NCBI RefSeq assembly: GCF_900496995.4
Contig: NC_044012.1
Span: forward strand, 24,900,759 to 24,964,758
From: Aquila chrysaetos chrysaetos
Taxonomy: Eukaryota; Chordata; Aves; Accipitriformes; Accipitridae
DNA length: 64,000 nucleotides
Direction: 5' to 3'
Positions within the stretch are counted from its first letter, which is position 1; the number at the start of each line of letters is the position of its first letter. Both the position numbers and the translations under genes were made by a program. Of the stretch, positions 1-58,876 are shown in pieces. The notes beneath the pieces were generated by a model. It was not told the origin of the DNA. It did no database searches and saw nothing but the letters and a program-made list of their open reading frames with translations.

Positions 1-3000
1 ACGTTGATGGCCGGTGGCTCCACGGTCAGCGATGTGTTGATCTGGACAATCTGGCGGGAGCTGGCAGCGAGGGGACAGTGTCACACCCCAGTGAGGGACA
101 GCACTGCCCCACGAATCCCACCAGGATACTCATGGGGACTGTGACATCCATCCCTGCTCCATCCCCAGGCTCTCCTCCTCTTATTGCAAGGGGAAACTGA
201 GGCACGGGGGAGTCCAGGAGATGCCTGGAAGTGTCCTGCCAGGCAGGACTGAGCCGAGTGACCCTGCAGAGCGTGGTGGCCCAGAGCTGTCCCCTCCACA
301 TGTCCCTGTCCCCAGGACTCACCGCAGCAGCACAGCCACCCCCTGCGCCCCCACGGCCAGGTCCACCAGCCCGTCCCCGTCCAGGTCCAGCTGCCCGTCC
401 ACGCTGCGCCCGAAATAGCTGAGAGTTGGACTCAGCGCCGCCGCCTCGATGCGCTGGGGAGGTGAGAGCAGGCCAAGCAGTGGCTTCATTGCTGTCTTGT
501 ATAAGGTTGTGCTCAACCTAATGGAGCCTCCCCCCAGATGGCAGCGAGACCCCCCAGCTCCACCCCGGTCCCATCTCACCTGCTTGTAATTGGGCAGGAG
601 GGTGCCCGGGGCACCATGGTAGACATAGACGGCACCACGGTGCCCATCCTCCAGTGGAGCCCCCACCACCACATCATTGAAGCCATCATGGTTGAGGTCC
701 GGCACGGCAGCCAGGGCATAGCCAAACCGGGAGTCCTGCGGCTTCTTGTTGGCATGCAGGGTGCCGGCAGGGGCCAGCAGCCTCTGAAGGGGCACAAGAC
801 AGCCCTCGGTACCCCATGGTGCCAGGTCCGGCCCCATGTGCTCCATATGTGAGGCCCAGGAGGTGGAGGGGGGAGTGCAGGGGATTCCCTGGGCTGTGTG
901 TCCTCCCTGGCCCTCCTGCATCTCCCCAACCCTGCTGTGACACCCCCCCCAAACCCTGCTGTGTCCCTCCAGTCCTGCCAAGTCCCCCAAATCCCACCGC
1001 ATCCCCCTGACCCTGCTGCATCCACCTGACCTTACTTTGTTCCCCCAACCCTGCTGTGTCCCCCCCAATCCCATTGCATCCCCCAGCCCCACTGTGCATC
1101 CCAATCCCCCTGCACCCACTGTGATGCCCCTGCATCCCCCCCCCCCAACCCCTCACCTGCCCCACTCTGTAGAGGTACACCCGCCCCATCTCCCTGCTCT
1201 GGGCACCCAGGTACATGGGAGCTGCCACCAGCAGCACATCAGTGACCCCGTCACCGTCCACATCCAGGGCGCACACCTCGCTGCCGAAGTAGGAGCCAAT
1301 CTGTGGGTCGCAGCAGGGTCATGTGAGGCTGGGGGCTGCCGGCAGCCCCTTCCCATGGCTGCCTGCCCCCTCCCCCTGCCAGCAGCACCTACCTGCTCCC
1401 CTGTCAGTGCCTGGGCCACTGTCACGGTCCCCGTGGTGCCCATCTCGAAGAGGATCACCTTGCCCTTGTGCTGGAAGCGAGGGGCTCCGGCCACGTACAG
1501 GCGCTGCCCGCCAGGCAGCTGCAGCGAGGAGACGGCATACCCTGAGGTGGGAGAGCCCGGGCATCAGCAGCAGGGAAAAGCCCTTGTGCTGGTGGGGCTG
1601 TTCCTCGGCCACCCTGTGTCCCCAGGGTACTGAGCATCCCTGGGGCACCCACCATCCCTGGGGCACCCACCATCCCCTGTTTCCCTGCCATGCCTAGGAC
1701 ACTGATCATCCCATTTGCTCCACATCCCCGGGGTGCTCAGTATCCTCAGTCCCCCCTGATTTCCCAGGGCACCAAGCATCCTTTGGGTGCTGAGTATCCC
1801 TGGTTTGCCCTGCATCCCCAGGGCACTGAGCATCCCTGGGGCACTAAGCATCCCTGGTTTGCCTGGCATCCCTGGGGCACTGAGCATCCCTGGGGTACCG
1901 AGCATTACCAGCGTACCGAGCATCCTTTGGGTGCTGAATATCCTTGGTTTGCCCAGAATTCCTGGGGCACTGAGCATCCTCAGGGCCCTGAGCATCCCAG
2001 GGGTACCCAGCATCCTTGGGACATCGAGCATCCCTCAGTTGCTGATGATCGCCCATTTGCCCCACATCTCTGGGACACGGAGCATCCCCAGTTCGCCCTG
2101 CATCCCTCGGGACATCCCCCCCCATACCCAAATAAGCCGCATGATTCTTCAGCTCCAGTGGGAACTCCTTCTCGAAGGCTTTCCGGGGTGGGATGATGCG
2201 GCCGCGCCGGCTCTCCTCCAGCACAGCCCCGTCCCAGTCGTAGGCTCCCACTGTGCCGAAGAGGATCCCGTCCTGGCAGGGAAGCAAAGGAGCGGGTTAC
2301 GCGATGCTTCGGCAGGATGAGAGCTTTGGGGGGAAGCACGTGTCACGCCTCGAGGACATCGTGTGCATGGCGATGCCTCACTGTCCCCAAACCCTCCCCA
2401 AAAATGTCATCTGGGACACTCAGTGCCCAGCATGACGGGGATGCACAAGCCCAGGATGGGCTGAGGATTATTTTCCACTTCTGCAAAGCCCCCGGGGCAG
2501 GCGGTTGCTGCCCTCCCCCTCCCTCCAGCCCTTCCCCGGGCCAGATCCTGCCCGTTCCAGCAGCCTCACCTCCAGGAGATGGAGGGAGAAGCCGATCTGG
2601 GACATCTCCAGCTCGAAGGAGCTCTCATTGTACCCGTGGGTGCCTGGGGTGGGGGAAGGAGATGGTATTCCTCCAGATGTGGTTCCAGCTGTTTTTTCTG
2701 CAGCCCTCCCCGGGGTCCAGGCCCGGATCTGGCCCCACATCACCTTCCAGGCTGAAGATGCGGTCGCCCAAGGCATCCACAATGTCGTTGAGGGCGGCCT
2801 CGTCGGTGACGTTGAAGAAATACTTCTCGTCCGGGTCGCTGGCAATGTACTTGATCTCACGGATGAAATCCTCAGGGTCTTGCTGCCGGCGGAGGTAGTG
2901 CCCCAGCACCTGGGGAGAGGGGGGTCCAGCATCAGCTGGAGGCCAGATCCTGACCCCAACACAGCCAGGATGGGGGTCCCCCACCCCAGCATGGCATAAA

Positions 3001-6000
3001 GGGGGAATGGGGAAACCAAGGCACAGTGCCTGCTCCTGACTAGCGGGCAGGGAGGTGGTCGGGGCGCTCACCGCGATGGCATAGCGGGTAACATTGCGCT
3101 TCTCACACTCCGCCAGTGCCTCAGGCAGCTCCTCGCCATCGTGGGACTCCCCGTCCGTCACCACAATCATCAGCCGGGTGGCATCCGCGCGCCCGCCCCG
3201 CTCGGGGCTGAAGGCTTCGGTGCTGCTGGAAAGGATGAGTGGTGTGAAGCCAATCCCGATCCCAATCCCGACCCTGATCCTGACCCCGATCCCAACCCTA
3301 ATCCTGATCCTGCTCCCCATGCTGACCCTGATCCCAACCCCAACCTTGACCCTTACCCCAATCCTGACCCTGATCCTGATCCCAATCTCGACCCCAACCC
3401 CCATCCCGACCCTGATCCCGATCCACATCCCGATCCCAACCCCAACCCCAGTCTTGATCCCAATCCTGACCCCGGTCCCAATCCCAGTCCTGATCCCGCT
3501 CCCAATGCTGACCCCAGTCCCAATCCTGACCCCGATCCTGACCCTGATCCCAACCCCAACCTCAATCTTGACCCTGATCCTGATCCAAATCTTGATCCCA
3601 ACCCCAACCTGTCTTGATCCCAATCCTGACCCCAATCCCAGTCCTGATCCCGCTGCTGACCCTGATCCCAACCCCAACCTTGACCCTGACCTCAATCCCG
3701 GCCCCAACCCTGATCCTGATCCAAATCCCGATCCCAACTCCAACCCCGACCCCAATCCTGACGCCGATCCCAATCCCGACCCTGATCCTACGCCCGATGC
3801 TGGTGCCCACCAAGCCTGGTGGATGGCGAAGGCCGTGCGTGTCTCCCGCCCCTCCTGCCGGCTGATGTTCTTGGCCGCCTCCACCACCTCCTCTGCTGTC
3901 TGGTACCGCCCCAGCACCCACTCATGCACTGCCCGCTCCCCGTACTGCAGCACCCCCACCTGCCACAGAGACGGGGTGCTCAGCGCGTGGGCTCAGCACC
4001 CCCCACTCCAAAATGTCCCCCCCAAAATGCGCAGCGTGTCCCCCCCTCCCCACAACGCAGCCCCAGCCGGCAAAGCGCACCCTCAACCACCCTGAAAGCA
4101 ACCCCAGCTGGCATCGCCCCAGGGGTGGCATCAACGCAGGGATGATGGCATCGCCCTGGGGACAATGGCATCACCCCAGGGGTGATGGCATGGCTTAGGG
4201 ACAACGGTATCACCCCAGAGGTGGCATCGCCCCAAGGGTGGCATCACCCCAGGGATGACAACGTTGCCCCAGGAGTGACATCACCCCAAGGGTGGCACTG
4301 CCACAGGGATGACATCATCCTGGGGACAATGGCATTGCCCTGGGGATACTGGCATCATCCCAGGGACAATTGTATCACCCCAGGGGTGGCATCACCCCAA
4401 GGCTGGCATCGCCCCAGGGAAGACAGCATTGCCCTGAGGACAACAGCACTGCCCTGGGCACAACGGCATCACCCCAAAGGTGGCATTGCCACAGGGACAA
4501 CACCATTACCCTGGGGACAATAGCAGCGCCCCAGGGGTGGCATTGCCACAGGGACAACACCATTACCCTGGGGACAATGGCATCACCCCAGGGATGACGG
4601 CATTGCCCTGTGTATGATGGCAGTACCCAGGGGATGGCATCGCCCAAGGGACAATGACATTACCCTGGGCATGACATTGCCCCAGGGACACCAGCACAGC
4701 CCTGGGGATGCTGGCATGGTCCTGGGGACCCTGGCACAGCCCCGGGGATGCCACCTCACCTGGATCTGTCCTGGCCCGATGAAGAACTTGTTGAGGATGT
4801 TGCTGAGGAAGTTCTGCACCTCGTACCAGGGGTAGATGCTGTTGGAGCCGTCCAGGACAATGACGATGTCCATGTAGGTGGAACAGCCTGCCAAGGGGGG
4901 ACGCAGCTGACACCGGCACGGCGTGGCAACATCCCGGCACGGGGCTCCACACACCGCTGCCATCCCCCCACTCACGCTGTGCCGTAGGCGCGATGGTCCC
5001 CACCGGCCGGAGATCACCGTCCAGCCGGGCGCAGATGCCGGTGCTGAAGACAGAGGTGCCGCACGCCTGGGACCAAAGCGGAGCGCAAGCCTGGCCAGGG
5101 GGGAGGGGGGGTGACACGGGGACACAGAGCATGGTCTGGCACCTGGCCCCTGCACCCGGCCGTGCCTCAGTTTCTTTCTGGGGAGGCTCCTCTCACCACG
5201 AAGCCGCCATCCTTGGAGTCCAGGAGGGTCATCCCGAAGTGCACGTTGTGGCCTGGGGTCGGGGAGAGCCACGGGGCTGCGGATCCTCAGCACCAGGGAA
5301 AGAGATGCCAGGGGTCAGTAGCGGAGTGAGACCCCCCCGCCAAACCCCGCCGGCGGTCTCACCGGGGTGAATGCCAGCCTGGAAAGGGCAAAGCCGGGTA
5401 CAGAGATGGCCACCCGTCCCCATGGGGCATGGTGGTACCGAGGTTGGCTTTGGTGCAGTTGGTGTTGGGGGGTCCCACGCGGCACTTGTAGACGTCACCT
5501 TGGCGGTTGCTGTCCCAAGGGGCCCCCACCAGCAGCCTGCGGGGACGTGGCAGCGTGAGGGGACACTGGCTGGGTCACCGGCAACACCCCGCTCCAGCTC
5601 GGCCGCAGCATTTTGGGGCACAGTGCCAAACCCTGCCCACCCCCGCCACCGGCACCGTGCCACGGTGCTTCCGCCACCAGGCTGCCGGCGGTTTCCGTCC
5701 GTCTGGCTGGCTGGCTGTCCGTCCTCCCTTTGATCGGCATCCCAACCGCCAGCACAGCCACTGGGGCCCCCCCGGATTTACTGACAGGACCCTTATTTTC
5801 ATGTCCCCCCCTGCTCCCAAGCTGTGTCAGGGCAAAGCACAAATCCACAATGAACCTTAAAAATCCCGTTTCTGCCCCCAGAAAACACCGAGGGGGCTTT
5901 GCTGCCCAGCCCCCTGCCTCAGTTTCCCCTCTTCAGGGCATCACAAGCCACGCATCCCCCCCATCCCTTAGCCCTGCCCCACATATCCGCCCCATGGGTT

Positions 6001-7607
6001 GTGCTGGGGGGGGATGAAAGCCCCACGGGTGTCCCGTTGTCCCCCCCCACCCGTGGGTGCCACTCACCACTTCTCCCCGCCGCCCACCCGCTGCAGCACC
6101 TTGTAGCCGAACTGGGCCTCGGCCGGTCCGTGGAAGAGCCGTGGGTGCCTCACATCGACATTGAACCCCACGCACAGACCTGGGGGGGGCAGAGGTGGGA
6201 TGGCGAGACCTGAGGGTGGGGGCACCCACGGACCCAGGCATCCTGCAGCCCCCCGCCACCCTACACCCATCTATAGGGACGGGACTGCTTTGGCGCAACC
6301 CCCAAAACACGATGGCCTCGGCACCGCGGGGGGGCATGCAAAGCTTCCCCCCCCCCGTTTTTTCAGGTGCTGCTGGGAGGACCCATCTCCCATCCAGTGG
6401 GGAATTAAAACGGGGGGGGGGGGGGGGGGGGGAGGACAGGACATGGGGATGGGTGTGACCTGTGATGACCGTGCCACAGCTGCCTCGTTTGCCAGCCACA
6501 ACCCCGTAATTAGGCAGGGCGATGCCCCCCCGCCCCAGCCCCCCCCCCTCGGCGGGTTTTGGGTGGGAGAATGAAGAGGCTGGCTGGGGAGTCGTGGCAT
6601 GGCCCTGGCACCCATGGGTGCCCATCGCCCTGCTGGGGTGAAACTGTGCAGGGAAAGGGGGGGAGCCGGGCCGGCGGGTAGTGGGTGTCTCGAGGAGGGG
6701 GAAGAGGTCCTGAGTGCTGGGTGCTGAGCACCCCATGTGTGGCTCCAAGCACCCCACAGGCAGCACTGAGCACCCCAAATGCACCACCAAGCACCCTACA
6801 TATAGCACCCACCACCCCACGTGCAGCACCAAGCACCCCAGCAGGCTCTGGGGTGGACAGGGCAACTTGGGGGTTTCCATTTTGGGGGGCCCAAGGGGTT
6901 TGCGTTTGCCTCCAAACTTGAAAAGAGTCACAAAGTGCTGCACCCCCCCCATCCCCTCTCCTCCTCTCCCAGCTCTGGATGGGGAAACCGAGGCACAGGG
7001 AGGCCAAGGGCCACTGCGCTGGCTGCATGCCTCAGTTTCTCCACCAGCAAGGCACAGTGGGGGAGCGTGGACTTGCCCAGATGGGACGGAGATTGGCTGG
7101 GGGCCCAGGCACCAACCTCTCCCTTGGGGGGGGGGGAGAAAAAAAACCCTTTTTTGTCTTTTTTTCCCCCCCAAATGTAGATTTTCCACTAAAGGTTTTT
7201 TTTTTAGTTCCTCTTAGCGGGGTTTGGCTTCCTTCCATGCTGGCACTGACCCCTTCCTGGCCCCATCCCCAAACCCAGGGGAGGTTTTGGGGTCCCCCCT
7301 CCAGCAGGAAAAAGTCAAAAATATATTGAGGAGGTGGGATAAGGACCAAAACCAGGTGCTTTTCCTGCAAACCCCCCCTGACCAGCTCGGCAGAGGCATC
7401 TCCACATCGCTGAGCTCTGGGTTAATGGGTACCCAGCTCAGCACCAACCCCCCCCCCAACCCCGCAGCATCCCCAAATGCCTCCGATTCACACATCCCTC
7501 CCCCCACAAAAAACCCTTTTTTCCCAAATCTGGCTGGATTTTGGGGGGACATTACCTGGGAGCAGGAGCAGCACGGGGAGAAGCGATCGGCACCTACTAC
7601 CCTCCAT
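1..7607 (-). CDS. ITGA10: Integrin alpha-10, partial (5' and middle coding exons)
   Basis: Collagen-binding integrin alpha chain, which pairs with beta-1 on chondrocytes. The coding segments I read on the minus strand are 7556-7607, 6068-6179, 5439-5536, 5363-5378 (doubtful), 5197-5252, 4976-5090, 4760-4887, 3811-3959, 3072-3225, 2744-2909, 2570-2643, 2128-2272, 1393-1541, 1157-1300, 580-783, 323-453 and 1-60, which continues off the left edge. Exon 1 encodes a signal peptide ([18 protein letters not shown]). The inserted VWA/I domain has the MIDAS motif DGSNS (4760-4887) and [10 protein letters not shown] (3072-3225). FG-GAP calcium loops read [19 protein letters not shown] and [10 protein letters not shown]. 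Order and wording follow human ITGA10 closely ([25 protein letters not shown]). All exon phases close except at 5363-5378. The calf domains, transmembrane segment and tail lie outside the window. Several introns hold minisatellites. Confidence 0.95.
1620..2110. repeat. Minisatellite in an ITGA10 intron
   Basis: Degenerate tandem units of roughly 15-24 bp built on 'catccctggggcactgag' fill most of the intron between the exons at 1393-1541 and 2128-2272. Open frames across it on both strands are products of the repeat (HPWGTEH- and APGMLS-like strings). Confidence 0.85.
3246..3800. repeat. Degenerate hexanucleotide array in an ITGA10 intron
   Basis: About 550 bp of C-rich hexamers (CCNANY type, for example 'cccgatcccaatcctgac') fill the intron between the I-domain exons 3072-3225 and 3811-3959. 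A six-base period with few stops gives long open frames on both strands: Asp-Pro/Asn-Pro and Ile-Pro strings on plus, Gly-Ser/Gly-Leu and Gly-Ile strings on minus. The flanking splice sites are canonical, so I read it as intronic. Confidence 0.9.
4120..4755. repeat. Minisatellite in an ITGA10 intron
   Basis: Tandem degenerate units of about 19-24 bp ('ggcatcaccccaggggtga' and relatives such as 'ggcattgccctggggacaa') occupy most of the intron between exons 3811-3959 and 4760-4887. Some adjacent longer blocks, near 4480-4540 and 4535-4600, are almost identical, which suggests recent expansion. Confidence 0.85.
6412..6432. repeat. Homopolymer run of 21 G
   Basis: An uninterrupted G tract in ITGA10 intron 1. 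Its exact length is likely to vary or be unreliable in assembly. Confidence 0.9.
6715..6840. repeat. Short tandem array in ITGA10 intron 1
   Basis: About six degenerate units of roughly 21 bp around the core 'aagcacccca' lie in the long first intron (6180-7555). The rest of that intron shows only simple C-, G- and T-rich tracts and no coding exon that I can recognise. Confidence 0.7.
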
Positions 7608-7761
7608 CGCCCCACCGTCGCTGGAGCCGCCAGCATCGGCCGCAAGCAGCTCAAAGGTTACTCTGTCTCCGTACAGGATATTTTTTTTTTCCTCTTTTTT
7701 TTTTTTTTTTTTAATATTTTTTTTTCCTCCTCCTTCATCTTCAATTGGCTGCTAAAAATAA
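7608..7761 (-). promoter_or_regulatory. Proximal upstream region of ITGA10
   Basis: Immediately upstream (minus strand) of the ITGA10 start codon. It holds a pure-T/T-rich tract (about 7678-7740), then an inverted CCAAT box (ATTGG, 7744-7748), then a perfect MEF2-type sequence CTAAAAATAA (7752-7761). MEF2 acts in chondrocyte differentiation, so the motif is plausible for this gene, but regulatory use is inferred from sequence only. A minus-strand ATTAAA at 7710-7715 could also serve the upstream TLR transcript. Confidence 0.35.
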
Positions 7762-8368: not shown

Positions 8369-10828
8369 CTACGTGGTGGCATCCATGGCTGTCTCTTCCT
8401 CTCCGGCAGCAGGACCGAGCCCCCCAGGGCTGCCCAAGAGGCTACGAAGCTGAAGCCAGAAGAAGGGTCGTCTCCCAGGTTCATGGGGCCACTCCAGGTA
8501 GGTCTTGGTGCCCAACATCTTCCGGAGCCGGGAGAAACGCTGGGGCAAACCCTGAGCATCGATGGGTTCCTTCACCACCAAGATGACGTCCTCGCTGCCC
8601 AGCCCCACGGCACGTTGGTGGGCAAAGTAGAGCTCATAGTTGCACCACTCACTGTCGACGAAGCTGCGGGAGAGGACGAAGATGACCTTGGCGCTCCTCT
8701 CGATGTTCTCCACGATGTTATCGATGATCCAACGGCCTGGCGTGAAGTCCCGCTCGTGGATACAGAGCCTGTATGGTGGTGTGGTGCTCTCCAGCCGGTG
8801 CAGAAGCTCCTGGCGAACCCAGCTGGCATCGGCATAGCTGTAGGAGATGAAGGCGTGATAGGAGCATCGCCGTGTGGCACCTGCCCGCTGCCTGCCATAC
8901 TTGGCACGCACCAACTGGTATGTGGCTCGCAGGTACCAACCGGCATCCAGTTTCCAGCAGAGCACAGCACACGCCACCACTGCTACCGCCGTGCTGGACA
9001 CCGCCACGGACACCAGCGCCAGCACGTTGCATTCCAAGGGACGCGGGGCATAAGCGGCCACGGCCGTATCCAGCAGTGGTTCGGGATGGTAGCAGGTCCA
9101 GTTGTGGGGCCAGTCGGTCAAGGTGGGTCGTCCCCGTCGCCATGTCTCCTCCAAGAAGAGGTAGAGGTCACAGGTGCAGTGGTAGGGGTTGTTGCCGGCT
9201 GCCAGGCTAATGAGCCGCGGCATATTGATGAAAGAGCCGTGACTGATGATGCCAAAGGAGTTGCCGTCGATGGCCAGCACCTCCAAACGGGGGCATCTCC
9301 ACTCAGAGGGGATGAACTTGATCTTATTGCCACTCAACCGCAGCTCCTGCAGCCAGGGGCTTCGGGTGAAGTAGTCCATGTCCAAGCGGTCAAGCTGTGA
9401 GTAGGAGAGGTCCAGGTACTCAAGGGTGGTGGGCAGGCACCCAAAGGTGCCTGCCGTCACCCGGTTGTGGTGGAGGGCCAGCCAACGCAAGGTAGGACTC
9501 CATTGGCACGTCTCCTGCAGGCTGCCCAAGCCATTGTGGCTGGCATCGAGGCGGGTGAGCCGGGGCCAGGTCCGCGTCAAGGCGGCCACCACAGCCAGGC
9601 TCAGGAGCTGGTTGGTGGCCAAGACAAAGCTCTCCAGCTTGGGCATGACACCCTCATAGTGGCAGCGTTGGTTATAGATATAACTGTCTTCCAGGCGGTT
9701 GCTGGAGATGTCCAAGGCCTCCACGTTATGCATCTCACCCCAAGCATCACAGGGGACATAGTTGAAGTTAACATTGATGATGGAGAGGGCGGCCACGCCA
9801 CTGAACCAAGTGAAGGTCCAGTCGAAACGCAGGACATCAGGGTTGCTGATGTCTTGCAGCAAGAGGCGGTCGAGCCGTGGGGCGGGTGCCTCCATGCCGG
9901 AGCTGTTCTGCCATGGCGAGCGGGCGAAGTCAATGGCCACCAGTGCCAAGTCACGGATGTGGGAACGTTGGACGTTGAGCAGGGCCAAGCGGAGGAGGTT
10001 CTCATTGAACTTGCCCCGGTAGAAGACCAACTTGGTGATCTGCAACTCGGCCAAGCCGTCAAAGGGATCGGCGTCACCAGTGTAGTAGGTGAACTCAAAG
10101 AGGTTACGGAAACGCAGGTAGTTGAGGGGTTTGCCCCGCAGGTCCCGCAACATCACCGGCAGAGCCGCTGCGCTCTTGTCCAAGGCCATGTCGCACCACA
10201 GCTCTGTGGTGTTGAGCCACGAGAAAGCCCCGGCTTCGTACCGTCGCAGGCTGGAGGCCGACTTGATGGCGAACTTCTGCAGCGCCGTGTCCTTCAAGAT
10301 GGCAAAGTCCCCCCGGGAGATGTCCTGCAGCAGTGGCCCACCCAGTGACAGCTCCTGCAGCTGCTGCAGCCTGCCGAAGATGCCATCCAATGCCGCGCTG
10401 CGGTAGAGGTTGTTGGACATGTCCAGCCAACGGAGGTTGACCAATGGTTGCAACGCCAGCGCCGGGATGCGGTTGAGAGAGTTGTTGAAGAGCCGGAGGT
10501 GCTCCAAGAGGGGGTTGGAGAGGAAAGCATTCGGCGAAATGCGGGAGATGTTGTTGTAGCCCAAATCCAAGTGCCGTAGCTGGGTCATGCTGGCAAAGTC
10601 GCCCGCTGTGATCTCCTGTAGCTTGTTATATGAGAGGTCGAGGCTGTGGAGGCCGCTGGGGAGGCCACGGGGCACCCGCACCAGGTCCTGCCCCTTGCAC
10701 AGCCCCGTCCGGTTGTCGGCATCAAACCGGCATGGCTGCCACGCTGCGTCCCCTGCCAGGGCCAACAGCACAAGGCACCAAACCCCCCGGGTGCCAGCAG
10801 CTGGCGGGGGCTGCATGGCCTGCGGCAT
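8369..10828 (-). CDS. Toll-like receptor, TLR1/TLR2 family, intact
   Basis: An uninterrupted frame encodes about 819 aa from the chosen Met; a second Met four codons on gives 815 aa. The upstream in-frame Met at 11002 is less likely because it would put 58 Pro/Cys-rich residues before the signal peptide (GVWCLVLLALAGDAAW). Leucine-rich repeats follow (LDLSYNKLQ, LDLGYNNIS, LDMSNNLY, LDISSNRL, LDLSYSQL). The LRR C-terminal cap has Cys pairs (YHCTCDL...WTCYHP...LECN). A membrane helix lies near residues 602-626 and a cytoplasmic TIR domain at about 656-797, with box 1 YHAFISYSYAD, BB loop RDFTPGRWIID and box 3 FFW. ETCQW in the ectodomain and the TIR wording resemble TLR2. TLR2 itself lies elsewhere in birds, so this may be a TLR14/18-like or other family-1 member. 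An upstream 5'UTR exon is possible. The gene sits between ITGA10 and PEX11B. Confidence 0.93.
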   Translation of the reverse strand: MPQAMQPPPAAGTRGVWCLVLLALAGDAAWQPCRFDADNRTGLCKGQDLVRVPRGLPSGLHSLDLSYNKLQEITAGDFASMTQLRHLDLGYNNISRISPNAFLSNPLLEHLRLFNNSLNRIPALALQPLVNLRWLDMSNNLYRSAALDGIFGRLQQLQELSLGGPLLQDISRGDFAILKDTALQKFAIKSASSLRRYEAGAFSWLNTTELWCDMALDKSAAALPVMLRDLRGKPLNYLRFRNLFEFTYYTGDADPFDGLAELQITKLVFYRGKFNENLLRLALLNVQRSHIRDLALVAIDFARSPWQNSSGMEAPAPRLDRLLLQDISNPDVLRFDWTFTWFSGVAALSIINVNFNYVPCDAWGEMHNVEALDISSNRLEDSYIYNQRCHYEGVMPKLESFVLATNQLLSLAVVAALTRTWPRLTRLDASHNGLGSLQETCQWSPTLRWLALHHNRVTAGTFGCLPTTLEYLDLSYSQLDRLDMDYFTRSPWLQELRLSGNKIKFIPSEWRCPRLEVLAIDGNSFGIISHGSFINMPRLISLAAGNNPYHCTCDLYLFLEETWRRGRPTLTDWPHNWTCYHPEPLLDTAVAAYAPRPLECNVLALVSVAVSSTAVAVVACAVLCWKLDAGWYLRATYQLVRAKYGRQRAGATRRCSYHAFISYSYADASWVRQELLHRLESTTPPYRLCIHERDFTPGRWIIDNIVENIERSAKVIFVLSRSFVDSEWCNYELYFAHQRAVGLGSEDVILVVKEPIDAQGLPQRFSRLRKMLGTKTYLEWPHEPGRRPFFWLQLRSLLGSPGGLGPAAGEEETAMDATT

Positions 10829-12599: not shown

Positions 12600-13385
12600 A
12601 GGGTCCAGCACTCCCAGCCCAGTGCCCCCCAGCCCAGCCAAGCGCCCCCAGCCCAGCAGCCCCAGTCCAACCTGCTGCTCTGGTCCAGCATCCCCAGCCT
12701 ATCCTAGTGTCCTCAAATCAGCCCAGCACTCCCAAATCAACTCAGTACCACCAGTTCAGCCCAGTACCCCCAGCCCAGCACACCCAGTCCAGCCCAGTGC
12801 CCCCAGCCCAGTGCCCTCAATGAAGCCCAGCCCAGAGCCCCCAGCTCAGCTCAGACCCTCCCAGTCCATCCCAGTGACCCCAGAGCAGCACCCCCAGTCC
12901 AGCCCAGGACCGCCCAATTTAGCTCAGTGCCTCCAGTCAAGCCCGGCACCTCCAAGCCAGCTCAAAGCCCCCTGTCCAGCCCAGCACCCCCAGTCCATCC
13001 CAGTGTCCCCAGATCAGCCCAGCACTCCCAAATCAGCTCAGTACCCCCAGTTCAGCCCACTACCCCCAGTCCACACCAGTCCCCCAGCACAGCCTGGTGC
13101 CCTCAATGCAGCCCAGCCCAGAGCCCCCAGCCCAGCTCAGCCCCCCCACCCCAGTCCATCCCAGTGACCCCAGCGCAGCACCCCCAGTCCAGCCCAGGGG
13201 CCCCAGTTTAGCTCAGTGCCTCCAGTCAAGCCCAGCACCCCCAAGCCAGCTCAAAGTCCCCTGTCCAGCCCAGCGTACCTAATCCAGCATCCCCAGCCCA
13301 TCCCAGTGCCCACAATCCGGCATCCCCAGCCCATCCCAGTGCCCCCAATCCAGCATCCCCAGTCACTCCTCACAGCCCCCCAGTA
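12600..13385. repeat. Higher-order CCCAG minisatellite
   Basis: Pyrimidine-rich tandem repeats of about 10-25 bp built from 'cagcccagtgcccccag'. A longer unit is visible above this: the block starting at 12721 (gcccagcactcccaaatca) recurs at 13017 with the same order of variants for about 250 bp, giving a higher-order period of about 296 bp. Pro/Ser/Gln-rich open frames across it are repeat artefacts. Confidence 0.85.
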
Positions 13386-18555: not shown

Positions 18556-19922
18556 CTAAGGCTTCAGTTTGAGCCAGGGATGAAGGATAGTGAGGATAGA
18601 GAGGATGGAGGAGGTGAGGCCGCACAGCCCCACAAAGCCTGGGTTGGTTTTGTACAGCCCCAACTTGTCCAGGGGGATAAAAAGGTCGCAGGCATTTTTC
18701 ACCACGTCCAGTAGCAGAGGAGGGTTGTTCCAAAGGATGCGGATCAGAAGCCGGAGCTGGATCTGCAGCCTCAGCCCCAGCTGCTGGAGCCCATTGTCAG
18801 CCCGGAGCTGGCACCCGTTCTCGTTGCCTTTTGCTCGCTTCCCGTTTGCCTCGCGCTCCATCAGGATCCGGATCTCGTAGGCATCCCGGCTCAGGTTCAC
18901 GATGAGGGCAAAGAGGTAATACCTAAAAAAAGAGGAAAAGGAATGGTGGGGCAGGGAGAGCAGAGAGAGCAGGAAAACAGTGCTGGGGATCACGGTCCGT
19001 GAAGCTGGGAGCCTCTAACTGTTTCCTTTTCAGCCATAAAAATAAGAAGTGCCTTAAAAAACCCACCCTGTACGGAAGAGTCCACGTTCTACTGACAGCT
19101 GAGGGGCTGAGCCAGGCCAAGTGCCCGCCACCTCTCTTGCCATCGGTATGGTGCAAGGAGAGAAGAAGCCCCTGCACGCAGCGCTCAGGAAGGGAGCTCA
19201 GACCCCTTCATCCACCCCTACTCCGTGGGACAGCAGAAAAAAAGCAAGAAACCCGCTCTCTCCCTGGGGAAGCATACCGACTCCTTGCCAGCAGCTCTCA
19301 CAGCTGTCCAAGCCCCTCACCTGAAGGACCTCTGGCCCCACTTCTCCTGGTCCACGCTGGGGACGAGCCCCGTCTTCCCCGCCCAGAGAACGTTGTCGCA
19401 GGCGAAGTACATGGCCCTGTTCAGGTGGCTGAGGGTGACGCAGAACCGCAGCACCATGTCCGACAGGTGAATGGCTCGTTTTGCCGCCTCCAATGCTTCG
19501 GCCGAGCTACCCAGGCGCATCACTGCGGGACAGATGGATGGTCACCGAAGGAGAAGGAGGGGGGATAAAGGGGGACCCCTGCCCCCCCCCAGCACCGGGG
19601 CAGCCCCACTCACGCTTGCGGCCCAGGCTGAGGTGAGCCTCCAGCTGCCGAACGCTGGCCAAGACCCCGGCACTCGCCCCGTTCCTCCGCAGCGTATCCC
19701 CCGCCAAGGCACAGGCGTATTGCGCGGCCCTGCAAGAGACAGCATGAGGGGGGGCCCACACCCCACACCCTCCCCGGGGGCCTCCGTGACCGCCCTCCCC
19801 CGGGCCCCGATGAGGGGAGGCCGGGCAGCCCTACGCCGGAACCGGCACAGTAACAGCCCCCCGTACCTGAAGAGCCGCTCCTTGGCCTGGCTCTGGGCGC
19901 TGAAGCGGACCCAGGTCTCCAT
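18556..19922 (-). CDS. PEX11B: Peroxisomal membrane protein 11B
   Basis: Promotes elongation and division of peroxisomes from their membrane. Four coding exons on the minus strand: 19867-19922, 19614-19729, 19321-19522 and 18556-18922, all with GT-AG sites and closing phases, giving 246 aa (human 259). The protein starts [22 protein letters not shown], with the conserved N-terminal amphipathic region. It continues with [26 protein letters not shown], the VLRF...[17 protein letters not shown] block, a YYLF...NLSRDAYEI block, and a C-terminal membrane segment ending [17 protein letters not shown]. The Gly-rich loop of the human protein is shortened here. The gene is divergent from LIX1L, with start codons about 810 bp apart across a shared CpG-rich promoter. 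Confidence 0.97.
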
Positions 19923-20686: not shown

Positions 20687-31145
<10,459 letters not shown>

Positions 31146-34432: not shown

Positions 34433-37505
<3,073 letters not shown>

Positions 37506-42528: not shown

Positions 42529-43839
42529 CTAACTGCCTGGCTCTGGGGCCATGCTGCTCTGGAAGTTGGCCAGCTGCCGCATCTCCTCCGTCTGCATCGA
42601 GTGCCGGCGCAGCAGCTTGCGGCGTCCCTTGGGTGAGCCGGGGGCCAGGGGGCCACGGGGGCAGGGGGGGTGCGGGCCAGGGTGCAGGGGGGGCAAGAAG
42701 CCAGCCCTCCCCGGAGCCAAGGGCTCCAGCAAGAGGGTGCCAGAGCCACGACGCTCCAGCAAACCGGGTGGGCGTCGGCGGGCACCCGGTGGGGACTCGG
42801 CAGCTGGCAGCGGCATGGCCAATGCGGCACAGTGCCGGCCTCGGCCCGGCGATGGAGGCGGCGAGCCGGCCCAGGGACACCCCTCCATTTCAGGGGGTTC
42901 CCAGCGAGGCGGTTTGACCCGCACCGTTTCAGGGGCCGTGTTCCGGCGTGCCAGCGGCTGCAGGCAAGCGGGGGGCACCCGCTCGGCCCAGGCGGCCCCC
43001 AGTAGCCCCGCCGCCTCCCGGCCCTCCACGCTGTGCCGCCGCGGGCGCCCGCCCAGGCTTAGCCCCTCCATCCCCGCCACCAAATGCTCGGGGGGTCCCC
43101 ATGTTCCCTCCGTCCCCGGGGCCACCAACCCCCAGGGCTCTGAATTGAGGCGCTTCAGCGGCCGCCCCCGGCCACGGGATGGCTCCGGTACGGCGGTGAC
43201 CGGCGCCGGTGGTGGCGGCGGGGGGAAGCAGAAGATGTCCCTCTCCTCTTCTTTCTCACTGCCGGCCGGTGAAGCCGCCGTCCGCACCTCGATGTCAGAG
43301 GGCGACATGCAAAGCGCCGGCGAGTGTTTCTCCTCCAGCCCAGGCGAAGGGGGCGAGTTTAGGTATTGCCGGGTGGTTTTGGTACCCGAGGGCGAGGTGT
43401 CAGTGGTGATGATGATTACCTCCTTCCCTCGAGCTTTGCAGGCATCCAACAGCACCTGCAGCGTCTCCCGGTCCCCCCGGTTAATGGCGTAAACCAAAGC
43501 GGAGGCTCCGGCGTAATCGCGGGCGCTGGGATCAGCGCCGTGAGCCAACAAAACAGCGGCTACCGCCGGGCCGGCGCGTTCAGCGCAGGCGTGCATCAAT
43601 GCCGTCTTGCCCGTCTTATCGGGGATGTTGGGATCGGCGCCGTTTTCCAGGAGGTACCTCACCATACGGGGCTGCTCCAGTGGGTCGGTGTAGCCAGCCC
43701 GGCACGCGGCCATCAACGGCGTTTGCCCGGCGGCATTGCCTTCGTTGATGTAGGCTCCCCCTTCCAACAAGAGCCGGGTGAGACGAAATTTGCCCTGTGC
43801 CACAGCTCGCAGCAACGCCGAACCGTCCGCCGGTAACAT
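42529..43839 (-). CDS. ANKRD34A: Ankyrin repeat domain-containing protein 34A
   Basis: Single coding exon, 436 aa from the Met of MLPADGSALLRAVAQG, which aligns with the human start MLHTEGHALLRAVGQG. In-frame Mets at 43893 and 43953 precede it but add low-complexity residues absent from human. Ankyrin repeats span about residues 7-135 (LLLEGGAYINEG, TPLMAACRAG, YLLENGADPNI, TALMHACAERA, VLLAHGADPSARD). The family-specific box EVIIITTDTSPSGTK follows, then LNSPPSPG, LKRLNSEPWGLVAP, the repeated RRHSxEG/RRNTAPE phospho-type motifs, GLLERRGSGTLLLE and a C-terminal RRHSMQTEEMRQL. The protein is neural in mammals, with no established activity. The middle is Pro/Arg-rich and shorter than in human. 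Confidence 0.96.
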   Translation of the reverse strand: MLPADGSALLRAVAQGKFRLTRLLLEGGAYINEGNAAGQTPLMAACRAGYTDPLEQPRMVRYLLENGADPNIPDKTGKTALMHACAERAGPAVAAVLLAHGADPSARDYAGASALVYAINRGDRETLQVLLDACKARGKEVIIITTDTSPSGTKTTRQYLNSPPSPGLEEKHSPALCMSPSDIEVRTAASPAGSEKEEERDIFCFPPPPPPAPVTAVPEPSRGRGRPLKRLNSEPWGLVAPGTEGTWGPPEHLVAGMEGLSLGGRPRRHSVEGREAAGLLGAAWAERVPPACLQPLARRNTAPETVRVKPPRWEPPEMEGCPWAGSPPPSPGRGRHCAALAMPLPAAESPPGARRRPPGLLERRGSGTLLLEPLAPGRAGFLPPLHPGPHPPCPRGPLAPGSPKGRRKLLRRHSMQTEEMRQLANFQSSMAPEPGS

Positions 43840-44189
43840 GGTTAAACCGGGTGGCCCGCTGGCACCAGGAGGGCGGCGGACAGGGCTGGGCATTGCGGCA
43901 CTTATGGCAGCAGGGATGGCAGATGGGTGTGCTGGTCCGGGATTGTTGCCCACTCACTGCAAGGGGACACGGCGCATGTTGAAGCCCCCCCCCAACCCTC
44001 ACGATGGGGCAGTCCCAGCTCCCTGCCTCAGTTTCCCCAGCTGGGTCCCGTGAGGGGATGCTTCTCATGGATGCTACCAGCCATGGCAGCACAGCCCGTG
44101 GTACCGGGTCCCCTGGGCCCCTCTGCTGCTGCCTCTGGGCTGTGCCCACCTGCCTGCGCCATCCCCTGCCTGTGTCGCCCTGCCACATC

Positions 44190-44776: not shown

Positions 44777-45099
44777 CGGAGGGTGGTATCCCCTGGCGAC
44801 GGGTCCTGGTCCCAGATGCCCCGGGGATGGAGGTGTCGGGGACATTGTTTGGTGGCCGCCATCCCGGCCTGCCGCCGGCGTAGTGGGGAGGGGGGGAGAA
44901 GGCAGGGGAGGTTATTTGGAGGGTTTTTCCCCCCCCTGCATCGCTATTTTTGGCAGCTGCTGGCGCGGGGAGGGCTGGAGAGGGATGAATCACCCGGCGG
45001 CGCAGCCGGCAACGAACCCACTGCGGCGAGCTGCCTGCGCAGGGGTGCGAGGGAGAGAGCGGCCATAAGGCCTGGCACAGCGGGGCTGGTGGTCACAGT

Positions 45100-46423: not shown

Positions 46424-48280
46424 ATGGCGGGCCGAGGCCGGGGCCGGGGTCGCGGGCAGATGACCTTCAACGTGGAGGCGGTGGGCATCGGGAAGGGGGA
46501 CGCGCTGCCCCCCCCCACCCTCCAGCCCTCCCCCCTCTTCCCGGTAAGTCTTTAAAGGGGGGGGGGCGGGTTGTCCCCCCCCATCCCTGGTGTCGTGGGG
46601 GGGTGTCCCCCCCCCCAAGGGGAGCTGAGTGTGGCTGAGCACTGACACACTCACTGCACATGTGCCCCCCCCCAGCCCCTGGAGCACCGGGCGGCCCCGC
46701 TCCCGGGTGGGGAGGAGGGGGAGTACATGCTGGCGCTGAAGCAGGAGCTGCGGGGGGCCATGAAGAACCTCCCCTACTTCATCAAACCTGGGGCACCCCG
46801 GAGAGGTAGAGGGGGGTAAAGGGGGGGGGGCTGGGGTGTGCGTGTCCCCCCCTCTCCATCCTCCTGCACCCCCTCTTTGAGCGGGGGGGGGAGAGGGTTG
46901 GGAAGAGAATGGGGGGGAGGGTGCCTGCCCCATGGCACCCAGCCTGCTGCTGTGGGGCATCTCAGCCCCACTGCCCCCCCCCAGCCCCACAGCTCCCCAG
47001 CCCCACTGCATTGTGACCCCCACGGCCTCCAGCCCCACTGTTGTGACCTCCCCCAGCCCCACGGCCCCCCAGCCCCGCTGCACTGTGATCTCCACGGCCC
47101 CCAGCCCCACTGTTATGACCCCCCCAACCCTGCTGCCCCATGACCCCCAGCCCCACTGTGTTGTGACACCCCCCAGCCCCATGGCCCGCCAGCCCCGCTG
47201 CATTGTGGCCCCCCCAATCCCCAGCCCCACTGTTGTGACCCCCCCAGCCCCGCTGTCGCAGGCCCCATCGCGGCTGTTTCCAACTGGGCTGCCTCTCAGC
47301 CTTGGGTGTCCCCCACCCAGACCCCCCCCAACCCACTGACACCCCCCACATTGGGCCCCCTCAGATATTGAGCGCTACTCGGACAAGTACCAGATCTCCA
47401 GCCCCGTCGACAGCGCCATCGACTGGAACCCAGGTGGGGGGGGGCACGGGACAGGGGGAACCAGGGGGGCCCAGCGTGGGGCAGGGGGGCTCGGGGGGGT
47501 GGTGGTGGGGCCTGATCCAGCCCCTCACTCTGCCCCACAGACTGGAGGCGGCTGCCGCGGGAGCTGAAGATCCGGGTGCGGCGGCTGCGGAAAGGCAGTG
47601 AGTGTGTCCCCCCCGCCTCGTCCCCCCCTTCTTGTCCCTGCTGTGGGGCCGGATTCTGCCCCCCCCCCCCCGGGGGGGGGGGGGGTTAACACTCCCCTCT
47701 GCCCCACGCAGGGACCACCATCCTCATCCCTAAGTGCAAGCAGCGGGTCGCGCTCGACAAGGAGGAGACCATTAAGAAGCTGGAGGTAACGAGGCCGAAG
47801 GCTCGGCCACCATCCCGGGATGGGGGGGGGTGTCCTTACTGGGGTGGCCCGGCTGGATTTTAGGGTCCCCCCCCGGTTAATGCTGTGGGGGCTCCCCTGA
47901 ACCCCCAGAGCCTGGAGAAGAAAGAGGAGGAGGTGACGTCGGAGGAGGAAGAGGAGAAGGAGGAGGAAGAAGAAGGGAAGGAAGAAGAGGAAGAGGAGTA
48001 TGATGAAGAGGAGCATGAAGAGGTGGGGGGGGTGGGGACAACACGTGATGCATCCCAGTGGGCCCCCAGTTGGGGTGATGGGTGCAGCTGTCCTGGCCGT
48101 GGGGTGGCCCTGGTGGGGCCAGGGTGGGGATGTGGGGGGGGCTCGGGTGGCACCCTGACCCCCACCCTGTGTTGTGTCTGTCCACCCCCCCAGGAGACTG
48201 ACTACATCATGTCCTACTTCGACAACGGGGAGGACTTCGGCGCCGACAGCGATGACAACATGGATGAGGCGGTCTACTGA
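46424..48280 (+). CDS. POLR3GL: RNA polymerase III subunit GL (RPC7-like)
   Basis: Paralogue of POLR3G. Encodes the RPC7-beta subunit, which joins RPC3 and RPC6 in the initiation subcomplex of RNA polymerase III. Seven coding exons: 46424-46543, 46676-46805, 47365-47433, 47541-47597, 47712-47785, 47909-48022 and 48194-48280; 216 aa (human 218). The N-terminus MAGRGRGRGRGQMTFNVEAVGIGKGD is followed by the conserved PLFPPLE, ALKQELRGAMKNLPYFIKP, IERYSDKYQISSPVDSAIDWNPDWRRLPRELKIRVR and DKEETIKKLESLEKKEEEVTSEEE. A long Glu-rich acidic stretch and the terminal ETDYIMSYFDNGEDFG...SDDNMDEAVY come last. Introns are very short and one holds a minisatellite. It is divergent from ANKRD34A. Confidence 0.97.
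46945..47260. repeat. Minisatellite in a POLR3GL intron, inverted relative to 45100-45660
   Basis: Units of about 25-32 bp, core 'cagccccactgttgtgaccccc', in the intron between exons 46676-46805 and 47365-47433. The core is the reverse complement of the upstream 45.1-45.7 kb array. Confidence 0.85.
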
Positions 48281-55618: not shown

Positions 55619-58600
55619 TCACTGCACATTGTTGTTCGCGATGCAGGGGTCCACCTGAGAAGGGGGGAAGCGATTTCAATCCCGAGCCAAAAACCCCACC
55701 CCAATGTTTCTGCAGAGCCATCTCATCTATCCTGTCACCCCTACCCAGGGTTCAGGCCGCCAGGAGCGATCCTCCCCACCACACCAGCACAGCATCTCAC
55801 CTCTGTGTAGGTGGGCGGCGGCATGAACTTGAACTCTGGAGCGTACATGAAAATGGGGCTGTCGAAGCTGTCAGGATCATCCAGGAGTGGAGTGGTGGGG
55901 CTCTCCAGGCGGTGGTCTTCAGGAACGATGTCCAGGTAGCACGGGGGTGCTGTGAGGGATGGAGGGACCAGTGAGTATTCCAAGATCGCCTGCGTTCTCC
56001 CGCTACACCCCACCGCAACCCTCTTTTAGCCCCTCCTAAACTCGGGGGGGGGGGGGGGGGGGGGGGGGGCTGTCACAGTGGTGCCCACCAAGGACCCCCT
56101 CGCGGTCAACCGCATTCTCCTCACCTTCTGGAGCATCAGGGAGGTTCAAATCCACCCAGCTCATTTCAGAGCTGGTCTGACTAGCCATGCTGGAGCTGCG
56201 GCTACCAATGCCCGAGCGGCTGCCGATGACAAGGGGCAGCTCCAAGATGATCTTCTTGGAGCCTGGGACACTGACGTAGATCTGCAAGGGCAAGAACCAG
56301 AGTTTTAAGGGACGTTGGGAACCAAGAGGGGACGAAGTTTATCCCGCTAGTGAAGCAAGGAAGAGTAACACCAATCCAAACCACTCACCTGCAAGAAATA
56401 CTCCACACGCAGGATGTTGCAGCCCAAGATGGATGGTTTGAGCTTCTTGACGCGGATGGTCTTGCCCCGCCAGGACTCGGACATGCCCGAGATGATGTGG
56501 TTGCCTCGGACACAGGAGAGTTTCTGGGTGAAGACCTTGGTCTGCCCGTTGGCCAGGTAGGTGTGCTTGGCGATGATGGCCGCTTTGGGTACCACAATGC
56601 GGGAGCAAGTGTTCTCGAAGTCAGCGTTGATGCAGATCTCATCACCTGAGGAGGGAATGGTGTTTGGCATTTAGGAAGGTTGGAGCTTTTTCCTTGTGGG
56701 ATGCCCCTTTTAGCTGTTTAACATCCCCGATACTCCCCCGCTGCTCAGCTCAGGTACAGCTCGCCCCATCCCCCCCCCCCCCCCCCCTTTCTCCCCTCAT
56801 CTATGAGAGGAGGACACGCTCTTACCTTCGCAAAATCCTTTCCTGTCGATTTGAGCGCTGACTGACACACGTCCATCAGGAATGAACATACAGGACACCT
56901 TCTTCTCCTTCTTGGCAGCAACTGGGGACTGCAGAGAAACATCATTGTTACCTAGGTGAGACATGCCCACTGTTCCCATCCCACTCTCCCTTCCTTCCTC
57001 TTATTTTTGCAACAACAGCTTCAAGTTCCCCATGAGGTTCGAGTGTCTTGCAGCTAAGTGAAAGCAGAACAAGCGCGTCACTTTATCTGCCTTGGTGTAG
57101 ATTTCTAGAAGTAACTAGGACTTGCTAAGAACTAAGTATTTAATCCACGCTCAGCAATAAAACCTATTACGGGAGTCTTAATGACAGAGGTCGGACTGAC
57201 CCTATCCAAGGGCTTTTCTCCCTCCTAGCACCTGCTGACACCCCTGTCTCTTGGAGTAAAGCAGCACTTACCAGCAATTCTGGGGTGTTCACGTCGACAG
57301 GATCCATAACCTCGAAGCGCTTCTTTATCTCCTGAGTGGGAAAGGACGGGCGCTCCAGGAAGGCCTTCACCCAATAATCCACGCAGCCATACTTTCCCTT
57401 GAAGGTAGTACCCAGAGGCCTGTGGAAAGAGACGCTTGTTAGACACATCTGAGGCAAGAGAACTTCCCGTAGCAATCCATTTTCGTTTTTCTTTTCAGAG
57501 GCACCGTTTGTCTTGTACTTACCCCTGGGGAAGCTCGAATCCGAATTTGTACTCATATTTGTTCCCGGGTCTCAGGATTACAGAGCCGTCCCCATCTGGG
57601 AAAGGAAAAGGGGAAAGGAAACATTAACTGAAGCTCCACGGCTTTGTTCTTAAACATTATCCTCTGTTCTGCTTACACAGGCGGTGATGAATCCAAGCGC
57701 TGCATGGGCTTGAGCTGCATTAGCTGTTTGGTAAGAGCTGCCTACACCTGTCCCCCAAGAACAGCCCAAGAACCCCGTGTCTTCTCGAAGCAGGGAAGCG
57801 CTGCTCATTTAATCTCACTTCTATCAACATCCCCCTGCAAAGCCAGAACACCGTGTCCTGATGTACTTCAGTCCCTGTTACCTCTCCTCACCCACCCTGC
57901 TTCCACTCTGTGCGAGTATCTAGTACCCACTTCTCTATCTATCTCCAAGACTTCACATCACCCCTGTTATCACCCTGGACGCTTTGCCAAGTCCCTCTCT
58001 CTCTTACCTTCCCTGCAGCCAGCCAGACAAGGCGGCTGCTGAAGGGAGTTCTCCATGCCCAGGAGAAGAGATCAGGTGAGATCTCTCGGTCTCAGGTGAG
58101 ATGTGCACTTTCCATCCCCCGGCCACCACCCGTCCCAGGCACAGCACCAGCACCTCCTGCTGCCCTGACACCCAGCCGAGGCCAACGCCAGTACTCACTC
58201 CCTGCGGGCATACACTGTCGCTGCCTGTTCTGCGGGCCACACCAACACCCAACGGCTTCTGTACACTCTATCAGGCAGCTCGTCCCTCGCCTTTCAAACT
58301 TTGAACTTGACTTTAACCAAGCCCTGCTGTCCTCTGCTTGTTCACAGGCTTCAATCGATTCGCTCATTCCCCCCAAGACTCAGCCAACATCCAATCCCAC
58401 TTCCGTCTCTGTGACGATCCCCAACACCAGCGGAACACCACGACTCCTCACTGCAGAACTAGCCCGCTCGATGCGTACCCCAAGGGGACACAACCAGGAG
58501 ACTTGCTCCAGCCTCATCAGAGAGCAACCAGCAAGAAAAGCTGCCTCTCAATGGCCAGCTTTCTAGTCCTTTTCTCCCCACCATCTTTTGCCCCCCAACT

Positions 58601-58876
58601 CCCTTCTCCCAGCCCCAAATCCTCACCAGTGGGCTGCTCCTCCAGGGTGAGGACATCCTCGAAGCGCAGGTACTCCATCTCCTGCTTGCACTGCTGGGGG
58701 CCCTTGGCCCAGTTGACTTTGGCCACCCCACAGGCCAGCACCTTGACGGCGCTGACGCGAGTGACCTCGGCCACCTCCACCAACACGCGCCCGGCCACTT
58801 TCTCCCCGCTGCAGTAGACCTTCTCAGGCTCGCTAAAGGCCATCATGAAGGTCTTCACCTTCTTGAACATCACCAT
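55619..58876 (-). CDS. TXNIP: Thioredoxin-interacting protein
   Basis: Alpha-arrestin that binds reduced thioredoxin and lowers glucose uptake through GLUT endocytosis. Eight exons on the minus strand: 58627-58876, 57523-57595, 57272-57419, 56826-56928, 56389-56645, 56125-56281, 55801-55949 and 55619-55654; phases close to 390 aa (human 391). It starts MVMFKKVKTF. The N-terminal arrestin domain (KVYCSGEKVAGRVLVEV, ACGVAKVNW...QQCKQ) is followed by the C-terminal arrestin domain from about residue 175 (KKEKKVSCMFIPDGRVSVSA, DENTCSRIVVPK-type block, SSSMASQTSSEMSWVDLN). The human thioredoxin-linking Cys247 region is kept as GCNILRVEY/SCVRGNHI. PPxY motifs are PPCY in APPCYLD and PPTY in MPPPTYTE. 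The C-terminus is VDPCIANNNVQ. Human 'PTGENEMVIM' reads PTDGDGSVIL here. Confidence 0.97.
56044..56069. repeat. Homopolymer run of 26 G in a TXNIP intron
   Basis: Uninterrupted G tract between TXNIP coding exons 6 and 7, about 55 bp from the exon 6 donor. Confidence 0.9.

Follow-up and report, generated by a model that had tools for sequence, protein, structure and literature searches.

An intact Toll-like receptor gene, most likely of the TLR14/18 type, between ITGA10 and PEX11B in the genome of the bird Aquila chrysaetos

The stretch of Aquila chrysaetos DNA analysed here (the window, 64,000 nucleotides, C9:24900759-24964758), together with a scan of the genome it comes from (1,233,704,830 bases in 144 contigs), revealed a real, intact, single-copy and ancient gene of the TLR1 subfamily in a bird. 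We consider it probable that this gene, retained beside ITGA10 and PEX11B in an ancestral gene block, encodes a functional plasma-membrane receptor, most likely the bird ortholog of TLR14/18. An intact receptor of the TLR1/2 family had been proposed at nt 8369..10828 in the first-pass annotation of this DNA, and the open frame, the LRR and TIR domains, the transmembrane helix, the three TIR boxes and the BB-loop proline all bear this out.

The coding sequence is a single open frame on the minus strand (nt 8369..10828) of 819 codons plus TAG, with no internal stop found by translation. The start codon is either the ATG at nt 10828 or the ATG four codons downstream (nt 10816). The GC content at codon positions 1, 2 and 3 (0.582, 0.449 and 0.798, respectively) follows the pattern of a coding frame, and no tandem repeat was listed within it, while positions 1-7650 hold about 1.7 kb of tandem repeat in summed arrays. 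DNA identical to the frame is present in the assembly at C9:24909130-24911586, and the gene is single-copy: after it, the highest-scoring hits are full-length matches at 31% (55 of 181 candidates scored).

The deduced protein has the architecture of the TLR1 subfamily, with a leader, a capped LRR ectodomain, one transmembrane helix and a TIR domain. The leader was read by eye from GVWCLVLLALAGDAAW as a putative signal peptide (residues 1-29; nt 10742..10828, minus strand) with the hydrophobic core GVWCLVLLALAG. The LRR ectodomain that follows (residues 30-602; nt 9023..10741, minus strand), delimited by Pfam, phmmer and alignment, bears an N-cap and a C-cap (CTCDLYLF...NWTCYHP...ECN), with the C-cap cysteines all in place in the ectodomain alignment, and includes every one of the six N-glycosylation sequons of the protein. 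Hydropathy places the transmembrane helix at about residues 602-624 (nt 8957..9025, minus strand), the 19-residue windows that start at residues 602-606 giving the peak and those at 602 and 605 its maximum of 2.39. The TIR domain (residues 657-798; nt 8435..8860, minus strand), defined by Pfam, phmmer and box alignment, contains on the same strand box 1 YHAFISYSY, box 2 LCIHERDFTPG (nt 8735-8767), which includes the BB-loop proline, and box 3 FWLQLR (nt 8444-8461). Pfam retrieved LRR_8 (E 3.9e-37) and TIR (E 7.8e-20, residues 657-783), whereas phmmer against PDB aligned residues 40-602 with the mouse TLR2 ectodomain end to end (E 1.1e-57) and residues 653-798 with the human TLR2 TIR (E 2.5e-50), E-values that exclude a chance resemblance to TLRs. 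An AlphaFold model of the single sequence had a mean pLDDT of 36 and was set aside. The Rfam scan gave 0 matches at the gathering threshold, and no relative of the gene was found by the scan of viral_contigs.

As previously proposed, the gene lies between ITGA10 and PEX11B. ITGA10 exons (nt 319..5293, minus strand; FG-GAP and I-domain) were identified by their VWA and FG-GAP domains and by an I-domain probe, and PEX11B (nt 18559..19922, minus strand) by tblastn with a human probe, which gave four matches of 60-79%. Long minisatellites are carried by the introns of ITGA10. Further along the window, human probes located LIX1L (nt 20735..31118, plus strand; exon 1 by eye and five matches from nt 26671), RBM8A (nt 34547..36197, plus strand; four matches), POLR3GL (nt 46457..48277, plus strand; four matches) and TXNIP (nt 55798..58876, minus strand; seven matches), and the domain search added one open frame for an ankyrin-repeat protein (nt 42529..43953, minus strand) which, by its position, we take to be ANKRD34A. 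In a 164-kb stretch around the window, human probes also placed PIAS3, POLR3C, RNF115 and ITGA10 to one side and, at the opposite end, past TXNIP, HJV at 68184-69346 in window numbering. We take the set from PIAS3 to HJV to be the gene set of human 1q21.1, a block in which no human TLR is known; since the two sets are the same, the block is regarded as ancestral. Nothing relevant linking TLR14 or TLR18 to these neighbour genes was present among the literature matches listed. Zebrafish tlr18 was expected on chromosome 16, where the one paper found places TLR19, so no claim of synteny with zebrafish is made here.

The first-pass annotation had also envisaged a microchromosome, which did not hold for this genome, where the gene sits at 24.9 Mb of the 45.2-Mb contig C9. 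About 0.65 Mb past the window, at C9:25.61-25.97 Mb, there is a large cluster of beta-keratin genes, for which a chicken feather keratin probe gave at least 144 matches in the genome, the best being 92% identical and full length. Such a cluster is presumably a mark of the chicken chromosome 25 segment, and this suggests that the segment carrying the TLR is the equivalent of chicken chromosome 25 and has become part of a larger chromosome by fusion. One "open frame" of 21,490 residues returned by the beta-keratin search falls in a run of N. CR1 3'-end patterns gave, within the window, either 0 matches or counts near chance. Many 2-kb blocks of the window have a GC content of 60-71%, with others down to 44%, and introns rich in minisatellites occur in ITGA10, POLR3GL and other genes. 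These introns resemble the "sequence stuttering" described for introns of chicken dot chromosomes in the available text of PMC12954441, according to which median intron repeat coverage is close to zero on other chicken chromosomes and chromosomes 25 and 33 have some dot-like features; a term search of the main text of that paper found no TLR, ITGA10, TXNIP or PEX11B. A locus so GC-rich and laden with minisatellites could help explain why the gene was overlooked.

The genome gave 22 TIR matches, namely two TLR1, two TLR2, TLR3, 4, 5, 7 and 15, the gene described here, nine IL-1R-family-like sequences and three others (L038, L040 and L042); TLR8, TLR9 and TLR21 were not seen among them. The TLR1 and TLR2 labels rest on TIR identities of 84.0% and 80.1% to human TLR1 and TLR2, respectively, and the two TLR2 genes were taken jointly as the 2A/2B pair; the genes labelled TLR3, 4, 5, 7 and 15 are presumed to be such from length and motif. 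The two TLR1-type genes are neighbours, and so are the two TLR2-type genes, in line with the tandem pairs published for birds (PMC2275738, PMC6946030). Taken with the beta-keratin matches and the genome size of 1.234 Gb, these pairs mark the host as a bird and reject a reptile, in which a gene of this kind would not have been new.

Relative to these paralogs, the TIR domain of the new gene is 49.3% identical to each Aquila TLR2, 46.6% to each TLR1 and 45.2% to TLR15, and 50.7% identical to that of human TLR2. Since 45.2-49.3% within one genome is to be compared with 80.1-84.0% between Aquila and human orthologs, the split of this lineage predates that between birds and mammals. Topology tests were performed on the TIR (13 sequences, 7 topologies) and on the ectodomain (7 sequences, 5 topologies), with trees built only from genes of this genome, four TIRs from human and one ectodomain from mouse. 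On the TIR, a position as sister to the bird TLR2 pair had p-AU 0.019, KH 0.074 and SH 0.17, and one as sister to the bird TLR1 pair p-AU 0.0002, KH 0.005 and SH 0.015, whereas joining all TLR2, all TLR1/6/10 or TLR15, or falling outside TLR1 plus TLR2, was allowed (p-AU 0.41-0.53; best tree 0.66), the deep branches of the tree being poorly supported. On the ectodomain, the position as sister to the bird TLR2 pair had p-AU 0.0027, KH 0.005 and SH 0.12, that as sister to TLR1A alone p-AU 1e-69, and joining TLR1, TLR2 or TLR15 had p-AU 0.96, 0.073 and 0.086, respectively, with a mild preference for the TLR1 side. Judged from these alignments, the lineage is one that split off before birds and mammals parted, with a deep placement that varies among TLR1, TLR2, TLR15 or none of them with these sequences.

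A text search for printed TIR box letters of TLR14/18 found PMC10151648 only, and Table 2 of that paper provided 10 of the 15 rows against which 26 box positions were scored, the other five coming from PDB and from this genome. Fugu TLR14 was the top row (24/26, with box 2 identical), followed by zebrafish TLR18, catfish TLR18 and grass-carp TLR25 (22/26 each) and by lamprey TLR14d and catfish TLR25 (21/26 each); human and zebrafish TLR1, human TLR2, 6 and 10, and the Aquila TLR1, both TLR2 and TLR15 scored 16-19/26, so that all six TLR14/18/25 rows rank above all nine TLR1/2/6/10/15 rows. The box signature of TLR14/18, (L/V)C(I/V)HERDFxPG; FWxQLR, is present in the Aquila protein, and the Q at position 4 of box 3 is found in 4/4 TLR14/18 rows, 0/2 TLR25 rows and 0/4 TLR1/6/10 rows of Table 2. 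The last residue of box 1 is Y here and H in the four TLR14/18 rows. No TLR14/18 sequence was found among the best 60 of 329 PDB matches, among the 14 of 14 matches of the TIR query, or in viral_contigs. In the available text of PMC6946030, TLR14 is reported from nearly all reptiles examined, strongly constrained at a dN/dS of 0.126, and TLR18 is listed for the green turtle in PMC9951749.

Because of the box match and of this reptile occurrence, we call the gene TLR14/18-type, a name already favoured in the first-pass annotation and still the best-fitting one, as far as box residues go. Orthology to TLR14/18 is most likely on both grounds, and full membership of the group, compared by TIR boxes only, is likely. 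The TLR14/18 receptors of fish, amphibians, turtles, other reptiles and lamprey share with the Aquila protein the near-identical boxes and the LRRNT-LRR-LRRCT-TM-TIR architecture; its 819 codons are close to the newt alignment of 819 (PMC4316619) and to the reptile alignment of 835 (PMC6946030), as given in the available parts of these papers. It differs from them in the residue closing box 1 and in its host, a bird, a class without any TLR14/18 in the published surveys.

The claim that the receptor belongs to the TLR1/2 family without being a copy of a bird TLR2 had been set beforehand as open to refutation by the trees, and it stood, the AU test rejecting the copy on both TIR and ectodomain and the SH test not doing so. 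A divergent copy of TLR2A/2B or TLR1A/1B moved beside ITGA10 is indeed the least probable of the explanations considered, and an extremely improbable one: TLR2 is the best PDB match for both ectodomain and TIR, the ETCQW-like and VPC stretches are common to both receptors, and the TLR2-copy tree passes SH on both data sets and KH on the TIR, but the AU test rejects the sister position to bird TLR2 and to bird TLR1 alike, on TIR and on ectodomain, and the Aquila TLR1 and TLR2 TIRs are nearer each other (52.0%) than either is to the TIR of this gene. Bird 2A/2B and mammalian TLR2 are moreover set apart from it by a TIR identity of 49-51%, an ectodomain identity of 25-29% and another locus. A recent copy of bird TLR2 or TLR1 was thus ruled out by the AU tests (SH not significant for the TLR2 copy). 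TLR15 is likewise TLR1-related, is borne by birds and reptiles and has the box 3 Q in common with this gene, but the Aquila TLR15 lies on another contig and shares the low TIR identity given above. Somewhat less remote, and still unlikely, is another ancient member of the TLR1 subfamily (TLR25, TLR27, TLR28 or an unnamed lineage). The TLR25 boxes are nearly as close as those of TLR14/18, the deep TIR placement allows several positions (p-AU 0.41-0.66), the box 3 Q extends to TLR15, and in the published tree, as presented in the available text of PMC8455134, TLR14/18, TLR15, TLR25 and TLR27 were all present in the jawed-vertebrate ancestor. The single best row is nonetheless fugu TLR14; TLR25 has a box 3 of the form FW(S/C)(S/N)LR, with S or N where the Aquila protein and all TLR14/18 rows have Q, and its records, in the text available, come from fish, elephant shark and lamprey, there under the names TLR14a/b (PMC10151648 for the boxes); of TLR14/18, 25 and 27, it is TLR14/18 for which that text reports occurrence in reptiles (PMC6946030, PMC9951749).

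Whichever its exact lineage, the TLR14/18-type gene might be a young pseudogene or a silent relic whose frame is still open by chance, and we hold this to be very improbable. The gene is known here from the genomic DNA of one genome alone, and published surveys, in the portions available, report no bird TLR14 (PMC4850435, PMC6946030, PMC2275738); against this, the lineage predates the separation of birds and mammals and yet shows no stop and a coding-type GC pattern, the three TIR boxes are intact, as are the C-cap cysteines, and a published table lists a TLR18 unigene for goose (PMC4376690). The frame admits 7,371 point changes, 261 of which create a stop; at 0.1 neutral substitutions per site 8.7 stops would be expected, with a chance of none of 1.7e-4, which falls to 2.8e-8 at 0.2 substitutions per site. 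Since the lineage predates the bird-mammal split and its frame is open, with TIR boxes and C-cap cysteines intact, the sequence argues for a gene that was probably kept by selection until recently, and its expression would be expected.

The best reading of the TLR14/18-type protein is a surface sensor of bacterial products, putatively coupled to MyD88. In the proposed mechanism, the LRR horseshoe would bind a product of the bacterial envelope (lipoprotein, lipoteichoic acid or peptidoglycan by class), the receptor would form a homodimer or a heterodimer with TLR2 in which the TIR domains meet through the BB loop, and MyD88 would then be recruited and NF-kB switched on. The lipid-pocket phenylalanine of TLR2, which we take to be F349, corresponds to N in the Aquila protein, where the alignment places a preceding loop three residues shorter than that of mouse TLR2 and shows NFNYVPC in place of KVF(L/M)VPC, the pocket motif common to mouse TLR2 and a bird TLR2 (L002). 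A TLR2-like lipopeptide ligand is not assured, because of both the F to N change and the shorter loop, and this receptor may recognise another ligand than TLR2 does. The class of ligand and the pairing are what the precedent of the subfamily would predict, and the MyD88 route is suggested by publications on fish TLR18 and lamprey TLR14b: in the available text of PMC10151648, tilapia TLR18 binds MyD88 and activates NF-kB, and lamprey TLR14b activates NF-kB via MyD88, while lamprey TLR14d co-precipitates with TRIF; seahorse TLR18 transcripts are up after LTA, LPS and peptidoglycan (PMC10426278).

In the literature, as far as the accessible text of the papers goes, the TLR set of birds is taken to comprise ten genes and no more (PMC2275738, PMC6946030). 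Temperley 2008 gives ten TLRs for chicken and states that TLR14 is not in land-dwelling vertebrates (PMC2275738), the chicken yielded no TLR14 to Solbakken 2016 (PMC4850435), Liu 2019 reports TLR1A, 1B, 2A, 2B, 3, 4, 5, 7, 15 and 21 from 37 bird genomes (PMC6946030), and a 2018 review considers the TLR14 subfamily apparently lost in amniotes (PMC6043800). BlastN was the search behind the published absence from 37 bird genomes (PMC6946030). The TLR18 unigene of the 2015 goose transcriptome, comp21608_c0, is an annotation in a table, with TLR18 mentioned once in the main text (PMC4376690). A search of titles and abstract openings for TLR14 or TLR18 together with birds gave no claim of a bird TLR14/18 among the matches listed, its scope leaving aside subscription papers and database annotation.

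What is new is most likely a TLR14/18-type receptor, a known kind, in a class from which surveys report it missing, and the usual list of ten bird TLRs may be incomplete. More broadly, we think it rather likely that birds as a class never lost TLR14/18 and that it persists, functional, as their eleventh TLR in its ancestral place between ITGA10 and PEX11B, on a segment resembling chicken chromosome 25, hidden by difficult sequence and by searches at the DNA level, and with an altered lipid pocket that would mean a ligand unlike that of TLR2. If this is true, the ITGA10-PEX11B interval would be where the scar of the loss should be sought in mammals, and hidden copies in other birds; being an exact, conserved interval, readable in long-read assemblies of birds, crocodiles and mammals, it makes presence, decay or absence directly testable. 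Models of pathogen sensing in birds and of TLR gene loss build on the ten-gene set, from which an intact TLR14/18-type gene in a bird would remove one inferred class-wide loss, and to which it would add a candidate receptor for bacterial ligands.

Between positions 18559 and 48277 of the window, the genes were found in the order PEX11B-LIX1L-RBM8A-ANKRD34A. LIX1L and RBM8A are apparently swapped relative to the human 1q21.1 order, ANKRD34A-LIX1L-RBM8A-GNRHR2-PEX11B. Long imperfect minisatellite arrays, with units of 12-170 bases, occupy introns and spacers of the window (1763-2035, 3250-3789, 4109-4748, 12743-13273, 45076-45644 and 46963-47255), resembling the "sequence stuttering" of chicken dot chromosomes described in PMC12954441, although here the segment is part of a 45-Mb contig. 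On the same contig, about 0.65 Mb from the window, lies a dense beta-keratin cluster (G000:C9:25610676-25966110), in the region of which a large run of N starts near position 25803706.

Outside this contig, the receptor matched a further locus of the host genome, L009 (G000:C22:944735-945853), an open frame of 515 residues. The match covers the C-terminal LRR cap and the membrane region of the receptor, and the frame stops shortly past a membrane helix, lacking a TIR domain. L009 is possibly the transmembrane form of bird CD14.

TLR21 was not recognised among the 22 TIR matches of a whole-genome scan of the host assembly, three of them being without an identity. Reported in birds (PMC6946030), TLR21 may be unassembled, overlooked by the TIR scan, or lost in Aquila chrysaetos chrysaetos.

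The host TLR1 pair (L004 and L005, G000:C1:25.83-25.84 Mb) showed 100% identity in the TIR and 68.3% in the ectodomain, the corresponding values for the TLR2 pair (L002 and L003, G000:C1:49.19-49.21 Mb) being 98.6% and 77.2%. Near-identical TIRs accompanying divergent ectodomains within each pair are a sign of gene conversion limited to the TIR end, a process reported earlier for this gene family (PMC3125219).
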